From Flavisolibacter sp. (GTDB lineage Bacteria; Bacteroidota; Bacteroidia; Chitinophagales; Chitinophagaceae), in contig JACDAZ010000005.1 in assembly GCA_013695175.1 (NCBI GenBank), positions 1-14,033 of the forward strand: a DNA stretch of 14,033 nt, given 5' to 3'. The notes beneath the pieces were generated by a model. The model did not search any database. It saw only the letters and a program-made list of their open reading frames with translations, and was not told the DNA's origin. Below are positions 321 to 8,451 of the stretch, in pieces. A program made the position numbers and the translations under genes. The number at the start of each line of letters is the position of its first letter. Position 1 is the first letter of the stretch.

Positions 321-2441
321 ATGGATATTCTGTACAATATTATTAAATATGAAAGATTAGCTACAAAAGAAGTAAAGATTGGAGATCTTCTGCTTGGTAA
401 TTTTAATCCTATTCGTATACAAACCATGACCACAACAGATACAATGGATACCATGGCAACTGTTGAACAAACCATCAGGTGTATAGAAGCAGGGGCTGAA
501 TTGGTAAGAATTACTGCACCATCAAAGAAAGAAGCTGAAAATTTATTGCATATCAAAAATGAATTACATCGCAGGGGTTATAAAACACCACTTGTGGCAG
601 ATATACATTTTACGCCTAATGCAGCAGAAATAGCTGCAAGAATAGTTGAGAAAGTAAGAGTAAATCCTGGTAATTATGTTGATAAGAAAAAGTTTGAATT
701 AATAGAATATTCAGACGGGGATTATGTTGAAGAAATAGAAAGAATCAGGGAGCGTTTTACACCCCTGGTAAGAATATGTAAAGAGTATGGAACGGCTATG
801 CGCATAGGAACCAACCATGGTTCATTGAGTGATAGAATTATGAGCCGTTATGGTGATACTCCTATCGGTATGGTTGAAAGCGCTATGGAGTTTTTACGTA
901 TTGCAAGAGCTGAATCTTACCACAATATTGTATTAAGTATGAAAAGCAGCAACCCTAAGGTAATGGTACAGGCTTACAGGTTGCTGGTAAAAATTATGCA
1001 GGATGAATTTGCTGAATGTTACCCTTTGCATTTAGGCGTTACGGAAGCGGGTGATGGTGAAGATGGCAGAGTAAAGAGTGCAGTAGGTATAGGTTCTTTA
1101 CTGGAAGATGGTATTGGTGATACCATACGGGTATCTCTAACCGAAGATCCGGAATTTGAAATTCCGGTGTGCCATGATATAGTGAAGAGGTATAGCCCAT
1201 CCCCGAATACATTATTAAATGTTCAAGATTCAACTAAAGCCCCTTCCCTAGGGGAAGGGGAGAAAGAGTATGATTTTCCAACTCCTGATTCAGAGAATCA
1301 GATAAATGATCAAAGATTCTCCCATCTAAGTTCCCCCTTCGGGGGACAGGGGGCTTCCATAGGCGGCCCCCAGGTTCCGGTTGTCATTGCAGATCTGAGT
1401 AAACTACCCGGCATAACGGCAAAAGATCTTGAAGCAGTTGGTTACACATATGAAGAAGCATTGGATAAATGGAATATTTCAGATACTGCTGCCGATTATA
1501 TTTTTACAGGTCATCATAAAATAAATTTTGCTTTACCGGGAACATTAAAAGTTATTGTATATCCTACTACATGGCTGGAAGTTTCAACAACTGCATTATT
1601 AAATAATGAAGAAGCACATAATAAGGTCTTTCCAATTTTTGACAGTGCTGGTTATATCAATGCCGATTTAAAAAGCAACCAACTAAACTTTGTGATGGTT
1701 GATTGTTTTAATGAAGAAACGACTGTCAATGATTTTACTCATTTGAATGGGCTGGCAAACGATCCTAAAGTTGTATTGTGTTTGAGCAGTACTAATAAAA
1801 ATGCAATGCAATCTATTCGACGCATGTTCATTGAATTAGAAAAGAGAAAAATTAAAAATCCAGTAATAATCGTTGTTGACAGCAACTGGAAAACTGCAGA
1901 TGAGCACCTGATACATTATGCCACTGAAGCAGGTGCTTTGTTGTTAGATGATATGGGGGATGGTGTTTGTTTTGGAATGACCATGGAAAGCTATCAAAAT
2001 TCTTCTATAAGCGATCAGCAAAAATTAGTAAATGCATCAGGAAGAAATTATATTACCTCAAGTTCAATTGAACATTTTATAAATAATACTGCATTTAGTA
2101 TACTGCAGGCTACACGAAAAAGAATTTCAAAAACAGAATATATCAGTTGCCCAAGTTGCGGAAGAACCTTATTTGATCTCCAGGAAACAACAGCCAAAAT
2201 TCGTGCTGTAACCAATCATCTTAAAGGTGTAAAAATTGCTATTATGGGCTGTATTGTAAATGGTCCCGGAGAAATGGCTGATGCAGATTTTGGATATGTT
2301 GGTAGTGGCCCTGGTAAAATAACTTTATATAAAGGAAAAGAAGTAGTTAAACGAAATGTGCTCAGTGAAGTGGCCGTTGAAGAACTAATTAATCTTCTTA
2401 AAGAAAATGGAGCATGGGTTGAAAAACCTGTATTGGCATAA
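321..2441 (+). CDS. ispG: 4-hydroxy-3-methylbut-2-enyl diphosphate synthase IspG (GcpE), three-domain form
   Basis: IspG converts 2-C-methyl-D-erythritol 2,4-cyclodiphosphate to HMBPP in the MEP isoprenoid pathway, using a [4Fe-4S] cluster. The 706-residue product has an N-terminal TIM barrel (about 10-300, including IRIQTMTTTDTMDT and MRIGTNHGSLSDR), a large middle domain (about 350-590) typical of Bacteroidota, Chlamydia and plants, and a C-terminal cluster domain. The cluster ligands are visible: Cys610 and Cys613 in CPSCGRT, and Cys644 with Glu651 in GCIVNGPGE. I start at the ATG at 321; a TTG 30 nt upstream is in frame but adds residues unlike the family. It is slightly longer than usual relatives because residues 306-345 or so are encoded by a palindromic repeat element in the linker between barrel and middle domain (see 1237-1356). 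All catalytic motifs are intact, so the gene looks functional. Confidence 0.95.
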   Translation: MDILYNIIKYERLATKEVKIGDLLLGNFNPIRIQTMTTTDTMDTMATVEQTIRCIEAGAELVRITAPSKKEAENLLHIKNELHRRGYKTPLVADIHFTPNAAEIAARIVEKVRVNPGNYVDKKKFELIEYSDGDYVEEIERIRERFTPLVRICKEYGTAMRIGTNHGSLSDRIMSRYGDTPIGMVESAMEFLRIARAESYHNIVLSMKSSNPKVMVQAYRLLVKIMQDEFAECYPLHLGVTEAGDGEDGRVKSAVGIGSLLEDGIGDTIRVSLTEDPEFEIPVCHDIVKRYSPSPNTLLNVQDSTKAPSLGEGEKEYDFPTPDSENQINDQRFSHLSSPFGGQGASIGGPQVPVVIADLSKLPGITAKDLEAVGYTYEEALDKWNISDTAADYIFTGHHKINFALPGTLKVIVYPTTWLEVSTTALLNNEEAHNKVFPIFDSAGYINADLKSNQLNFVMVDCFNEETTVNDFTHLNGLANDPKVVLCLSSTNKNAMQSIRRMFIELEKRKIKNPVIIVVDSNWKTADEHLIHYATEAGALLLDDMGDGVCFGMTMESYQNSSISDQQKLVNASGRNYITSSSIEHFINNTAFSILQATRKRISKTEYISCPSCGRTLFDLQETTAKIRAVTNHLKGVKIAIMGCIVNGPGEMADADFGYVGSGPGKITLYKGKEVVKRNVLSEVAVEELINLLKENGAWVEKPVLA
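1240..1260. repeat. left-arm hairpin of the ispG element
   Basis: A perfect 9-bp stem, CCCCTTCCC paired with GGGAAGGGG, closes a 3-nt TAG loop. The loop is out of frame as a stop, so ispG reads through. Confidence 0.85.
1285..1301. repeat. central hairpin of the ispG element
   Basis: A perfect 7-bp stem, CTGATTC paired with GAATCAG, closes a 3-nt AGA loop. It sits midway between the two GC-rich arm hairpins. Confidence 0.75.
1333..1345. repeat. right-arm hairpin of the ispG element
   Basis: Five C residues and five G residues flank a TTC loop. The following ACAGGGGG carries the outer inverted arm of the element, so the C run could pair alternatively with 1349-1353. Confidence 0.8.
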
Positions 2442-8415: not shown

Positions 8416-8451
8416 AAAAAGAAAAAACGTCCTGCGGTGTGGCAGGACGTT
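8416..8451 (-). terminator. intrinsic terminator of the T9SS-secreted protein gene
   Basis: A perfect 10-bp stem, AACGTCCTGC (8426-8435) with GCAGGACGTT (8442-8451), closes a 6-nt loop. On the minus strand the stem is followed by a T-rich tract (TTTTTTCTTTTT). It lies 20 nt after the stop codon of the upstream minus-strand gene and well before obgE, so it should insulate obgE. Confidence 0.87.

Follow-up and report, generated by a model that had tools for sequence, protein, structure and literature searches.

The Hairpin-Bounded Segment of ispG

The window analyzed here, a stretch of 14,033 nt from a Flavisolibacter sp. contig, includes an ispG gene, single-copy in this genome, in which a palindromic segment occupies the linker of the encoded enzyme. 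The features to which we refer are the following.

321..2441, forward strand: ispG (4-hydroxy-3-methylbut-2-enyl diphosphate synthase), the host gene, 706 aa (NF002534, E 5.7e-200; TIGR00612, E 3.9e-133)
1195..1356, forward strand: probable deletion derivative of a nuclease element in its whole extent (ends +/- 1-2 nt), with both conserved element ends; 161 nt
1195..1204, forward strand: left end motif GCCCATCCCC, shared with complete elements
1237..1262, forward strand: left arm with hairpin 1240-1260, encoding KAPSLGEGE (35-nt arm, scoring up to 26 (+1/-1) against the left arms of metH elements)
1285..1301, forward strand: central hairpin CTGATTC-AGA-GAATCAG in the core, from the fold
1293..1316, forward strand: possible trace of a lost nuclease, ENQINDQR (compare PENQINDEQR of an in-ispG nuclease), from shuffle scores
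1324..1356, forward strand: right arm with hairpin 1332-1346, encoding LSSPFGGQGA (37-nt arm, scoring up to 33 against the right arms of metH elements)

The coding sequence runs from an ATG at 321 to a stop ending at 2441, and homologues begin MDILYN. An earlier note on this DNA had described a 120-nt block within the gene, with three hairpins, rich in G+C in its arms and without a stop in the ispG frame, and this description is borne out. The block extends from AAGCCCC (1237-1243) to GGGGGCTT (1349-1356), with the ispG frame open throughout; it begins off a codon boundary, so that only its length is divisible by three. The left-arm hairpin is CCCCTTCCC-TAG-GGGAAGGGG (1240-1260) and that of the right arm is TCCCCC-TTC-GGGGGA (1332-1346). 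In predicted folding a 146-nt stretch here surpasses 199 of 200 shuffled versions (z -3.2). The two arms have a G+C content of 0.65 and 0.69, against 0.34 for the core and 0.37 for ispG overall. Four hairpins of the window reach a simple stem score of 12, the left arm being joint first among them, and the right-arm hairpin falls just below this cut. Elsewhere in the window, a perfect hairpin unrelated to the element (AACGTCCTGC-N6-GCAGGACGTT, 8426-8451) occupies a gap between minus-strand frames.

In the window IspG only GcpE exceeds the Pfam cut-off, and no DUF559 (PF04480) match does. The core peptide ENQINDQR is suggestive of a nuclease trace, its weak score being reached by 8 of 2000 shuffles against the in-ispG nucleases and by 93 of 1000 against all domains. 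Eight other remnant linkers gave no nuclease trace against the in-ispG nucleases (48 to 287 of 300 shuffles scored equally).

Element Ends, Arms, and Length

The arms and ends of the segment recur in longer elements carried by metH, ispG, and M23 peptidase genes of other Bacteroidota, in which a DUF559 nuclease is encoded in frame with the host protein. At their left end, elements in ispG (L194), in an M23 gene (L193, L102) and in metH (L070, L109, L205, L211, L246) carry the motif GCCCATCCCC, and a version altered at one or more positions is present in L201, L221, L068, and L075; in aligned left sides the motif lies about 30 nt ahead of AAAGCCCC. Since the same motif stands at 1195-1204 in the window, the inserted sequence reaches left to about 1195, and the boundary of 1237 originally assigned to it was about 42 nt too far right. 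From GCCCATCCCC to GGGGGC[CT], the distance is 500-530 nt in ten complete elements (13 relatives were tried and both ends found in ten, with no match to the pattern in L102 and L068, which are complete, and L165, a remnant) and 161 nt in the window, where the end reads GGGGGCT. All eleven lengths are of the form 3n+2, and thus the deficit of the window copy, 339-369 nt, is a multiple of three throughout.

The best match to the window arms is found in L201, a metH element of a Ferruginibacter MAG, with 26 of 35 on the left and 33 of 37 on the right; the sum of 59 compares with a maximum of 21 in 50 shuffled arm pairs. A score of at least 17 on both sides is reached by 12 of 182 elements, ten in metH (L068 and L069 being near-identical), one in ispG and one in an M23 gene. 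Both end motifs occur in 13 of the 190 loci fetched for nuclease matches and in none of 29 further same-family metH loci. The window copy therefore belongs to one sub-family, most nuclease elements having other arms, and it carries both arms and both end motifs of the complete members. No target-site duplication was seen by eye.

Copies Elsewhere in the Genome

In the 3.2 Mb assembly, which is 92% complete, the only occurrence of the left hairpin pattern is that in the window, whereas the right-arm pattern is found ten times including the window copy; the backward-read controls gave zero in both cases. The expectation of the earlier note that the 120-nt block would recur in the genome was thus realized for the right arm, with nine further copies, and not for the block, of which there is no second whole copy; a simple repeat family with the whole block elsewhere is ruled out. 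A chance palindrome is likewise excluded by these counts with their zero controls and by the arm matches. Apart from some single ones, the other right-arm copies are arranged as four or five inverted pairs with the right arm at both ends, the two starts of a pair being 89-158 nt apart. Six of these loci (L274, L277, L279-L282) lie between longer stop-to-stop frames or at their edges: in L277, L280, L281, and L282 one end of the copy runs into the stop codon (TAG or TAA) that closes a longer frame, and in L274 and L279 it falls within a few bases of such a codon.

The only DUF559 match of the genome is in frame in the one leuS that it has over the cut-off (G000:C293, L053 1309-1629), where a complete nuclease immediately precedes the TTRPDTIFG motif of LeuRS. 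Thus, one essential enzyme carries a complete nuclease here while ispG carries a remnant. A search for metH in this genome returned nuclease- or corrinoid-domain matches only, and the gene was not found.

The Insertion Site in IspG Relatives

Among the best 120 of 8000 scored candidates, at least five IspG proteins (P0005, P0009, P0016, P0046, P0050; 828-849 aa) have PF04480 in the linker, and L194, from Flaviaesturariibacter sp., provides a sixth complete copy like that of P0005. In P0005 the domain, at 114.4 bits against a cut-off of 20.6, occupies the same site as the window insert, and the nuclease-bearing proteins show arm peptides like those of the window, such as KAPSRGEGE ... LSSPTGGQGA in P0005. 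An AlphaFold model of the whole of P0005 was poor (pLDDT 58.5, pTM 0.36) and was set aside.

We placed these sequences on a FastTree phylogeny of IspG with the linker removed. Its 174 rows (162 distinct sequences) comprise the window together with 116 of the 120 listed proteins and 57 of 59 loci. Six entries, P0025, P0040, P0069, P0092, L048, and L118, failed to match the patterns used, and P0006 is a fragment. The window sequence and five close sisters form a clade whose own sister is P0005, with its full nuclease, the joint node having a support of 100 in this protein-level comparison; P0058, with a short linker, is the next branch. The conserved YKRRETFxVxNIG tail is absent from seven of the 174 rows, namely P0005 and the window clade only. 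By crude rules of length and motif, under which L165, of the same genus, counts as short yet keeps one hairpin arm, 121 rows have a short linker, 36 a long one, 11 a two-armed one and six a nuclease (111, 34, 11, and 6 of the distinct sequences). The short linker is therefore the commonest state, the others being remnants or nucleases, and the contrary case named in the earlier note, in which close relatives have a linker of equal length and common origin but without palindromes, did not appear.

Nuclease, remnant and empty linkers are intermixed across the tree. P0008, at a distance of 0.14-0.15 from the nuclease-bearing P0009 and P0046, retains the front of a nuclease element; the shared stretch, EETVGYRYADxTVYxLLKDFAI, precedes the domain as delimited and was read directly from the sequence. 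With P0005 as the query, 385 of 394 same-family genomes gave a match, and among the matches listed one (G088) has a complete nuclease in ispG. On the nuclease tree the nearest tips to this domain are solo copies, at the end of a long branch, which looks like an independent arrival. The linkers of L192, L048, and L170 hold unrelated hairpins (AATTGGCAATTGACAATAAGCAATTGCCAATT in L192, for example), and the ispG linker may thus collect several palindrome families.

DUF559 Cassettes in Other Host Genes

PF04480 matches are present in 76 of 147 same-family genomes. Of the 110 loci fetched from this family (E up to 1e-26, plus one weaker), 107 have the domain by profile, the 106 distinct domains dividing into 58 in host frames and 48 solo. 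A contig scan of the best 80 of 403 relatives, a sample biased to the in-ispG nuclease type, added 82 domains, none of them in a frame shorter than 282 aa. Pooled, there are at least 181 distinct domains; to be retained a domain had to exceed 60 in score and 90 residues in length, a filter that favors intact ones. Of these, 133 are in genes, at 27 labelled sites in some 21 host genes and four unlabelled sites; these site and gene counts are approximate, as the labels beyond nine hosts scanned with NCBIfam are our assignments from conserved motifs. In that scan LeuRS, IspG, CinA, adenine deaminase, MiaB, urocanate hydratase, and chorismate synthase exceeded the curated cut-off, whereas MetH and IcmF were the best matches yet remained below it because their frames are cut by the locus end. 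Four hosts (ArgB, ThrB, HisA, and a nucleotidyltransferase-like protein) have the domain within the first 70 residues of the frame, and in them it may have been fused to an end of the protein instead of inserted into a linker. Two nuclease domains at different sites of one host frame were observed in L058 and L060 (LeuRS) and in L226 (AMP-ligase).

The nearest solved relatives of the nuclease are 3hrl and the homing endonuclease I-Bth0305I (3r3p), of the EDxHD family, to which the complete elements are related in sequence and fold. Six catalytic-type positions are unchanged in all 133 in-gene domains, and E, D, H, and D stand at fitting places in 133 of 133; these may correspond to the active-site residues for which the EDxHD family is named. 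To judge from codon comparisons, the domain is under purifying selection, with a median dN/dS of 0.10 and a maximum of 0.25 in the 23 of 36 pairs where the ratio is defined. At synonymous sites the nuclease is more alike than its host in 21 of 36 independent pairs and less so in 15; recent horizontal transfer has no overall support from these sites, nuclease dS being lower in several of the closest pairs and not in others.

Hairpins with a score of at least 11 flank in-gene domains on the left in 74 of 133 cases and on the right in 90 of 133, compared with 26 of 798 control windows; for solo domains the figures are 13 of 49 and 25 of 49 (controls, 8 of 294). The left and right flanks of in-gene copies show greater mutual complementarity than mismatched pairs do, with a median of 15 versus 10 and scores of at least 18 in 46 of 131 versus 38 of 519. 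Solo copies have medians of 9 and 9, high scores being commoner in true pairs (11 of 49 vs. 1 of 191). The observation that in-gene frames are open through the right hairpin (121 of 121) and solo frames stop before it (28 of 34) was not relied on, since the two classes were split by frame length (270 aa) and the contrast is partly circular.

Domains from one host site tend to fall together (41 changes, where each of 100 shuffles needed 113 or more), a pattern that also fits long vertical inheritance, and in-gene and solo copies group apart (7 changes versus at least 37 in shuffles). With 28 states, the nuclease tree requires at least 27 moves between settings, and under midpoint rooting several sites, MetH_B12 and LeuRS_A among them, do not form one clade.

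A survey of metH, for which 40 genomes were searched, gives an indication of the direction of change. The neighboring linker is empty (4-13 aa) in 25 of 30 fetched same-family loci, four do not fit the pattern, and in one genome it carries the element (171 aa). Thus, the element is the gained state in metH.

Origin of the ispG Segment

We propose, with a probability of about 0.78, that the ispG segment is a decayed, internally deleted copy of a selfish DUF559 (EDxHD/Vsr-like) cassette flanked by coding hairpin arms. This reading is based on the same arms, the same site, the complete nuclease of the sister lineage, the loss of a multiple of three, the many hosts and the conserved catalytic positions. 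We read the complete element as homing-like, non-splicing and selfish, with a putative mobility by cutting. The cassette would insert in frame into linkers of housekeeping proteins and be read as part of the host protein; its nuclease would cut empty alleles, into which repair would copy the cassette, and more rarely it would jump to new genes together with its hairpin ends. Copies that lose the nuclease would persist as harmless linker peptides and, the host gene being essential, only in-frame losses would survive. For the window clade, the simplest path is that the ancestor it shares with P0005 acquired the complete element, that the adjoining tail was lost, and that the nuclease then disappeared by an in-frame loss. 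Alternatively, the nuclease may have been gained later, by the P0005 lineage alone, into an older short element.

The earlier note had seen here the in-frame insertion of a palindromic element into an essential gene. As regards the insertion this agrees with the single-copy ispG, the linker position and the related copies; the element, however, is not a simple repeat, and in place of a stand-alone repeat of the Rickettsia kind it reads as the internally deleted form of one that encodes a nuclease. That it is "domesticated" is unproven; what can be observed is that 64-66 of 67 linker residues are identical across the five close sisters.

A passive short palindromic element, similar to a MITE or a Rickettsia palindrome, might instead have inserted as such, the nuclease-bearing forms having entered the same permissive hot spot independently. 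In favor of this scenario are the short copies in this genome that bear that right arm and lie between genes or at their edges, and also the nuclease in the ispG linker of G088, whose proximity to solo copies implies that the linker was entered more than once. Nevertheless, the ispG copy has the distinct left end and left hairpin of the nuclease elements, while the paired copies have the right arm twice, and P0005 has the site, the left-arm peptide and the loss of the tail in common with the window; we thus regard this scenario as improbable. Less probable still is a nuclease fusion useful to the host, for instance in Vsr-type mismatch repair, which many enzymes would have recruited and some lineages would have lost again. 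The purifying selection on the domain would agree with it, and a DUF559 protein, VsrA, acts in Caulobacter and is a predicted mismatch-repair nuclease (PMC12907096). It does not sit well with the unrelated hosts, the patchy presence at the examined sites, the hairpin ends carried along and the frequency of empty alleles.

In-frame placement in conserved proteins, combined with a homing-type nuclease, also recalls a remnant of an intein or self-splicing intron. The Pfam matches of P0005 (E up to 0.01), however, are GcpE, DUF559, and MTES_1575 only, with no splicing (HINT) domain, neither the window nor six loci gave an Rfam match at the gathering score (an absence that is not proof), and the element ends are low-complexity hairpin peptides; we hold such an origin to be very unlikely. 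Chance drift of a disordered linker accords with the wide variation of linker length across the IspG family, but matching arms are found in elements of other genes and species, and we give it hardly any credence.

Returning to the decayed cassette, we think it probable, with less assurance than for the ispG segment itself, that these elements belong to a widespread class: EDxHD cassettes with neither start nor stop, which are permanent in-frame domains of essential enzymes, home without splicing, have hairpin ends that serve as linker peptides, and decay into new protein segments. We found no description of in-frame DUF559 elements in the literature searched, most subscription papers falling outside that search. 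If these elements do form such a class, homing endonucleases can live in essential genes without an intein or intron, tolerant linkers and coding hairpin ends being sufficient. The origin of many odd linker inserts in Bacteroidota enzymes would be explained, a clear route would lead from selfish DNA to new protein segments, and the sites (LeuRS, MetH, MetRS, AroC, IspG, and others) would amount to a natural catalogue of positions tolerant of insertion.

Comparison with Known Systems

Palindromic elements of Rickettsia have relatives in Wolbachia. Those of Rickettsia insert in frame in protein genes (PMC3733652), and the present case resembles them in that short palindromic DNA is read as extra residues. 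Here, in contrast, the complete form codes for a nuclease, the short form resembles a product of deletion, and the phylum is a different one. Pairs of insertion sequences and MITEs similarly combine a gene-bearing form with short forms having common ends, whereas in the present element a DUF559 nuclease and no transposase was found, and insertion is into coding frames.

The ShiLan element of a phage methylase is a homing-like insert without a splicing domain and open in the host frame; its HNH nuclease is encoded in a different frame and has a start of its own, while here the nuclease is in the host frame (PMC11855218). The same paper mentions a lone LAGLIDADG insert without a detectable splicing part, apparently vertically inherited (PMC11855218). 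With inteins and homing endonucleases (EDxHD, I-Bth0305I) the cassettes share a homing-type nuclease in frame in conserved genes and a patchy distribution. They differ from these in that no splicing part was found, the insert apparently stays in the enzyme, the ends are hairpins and the sites are many. Their nuclease-less remnants, such as that in the window, are comparable to mini-inteins.
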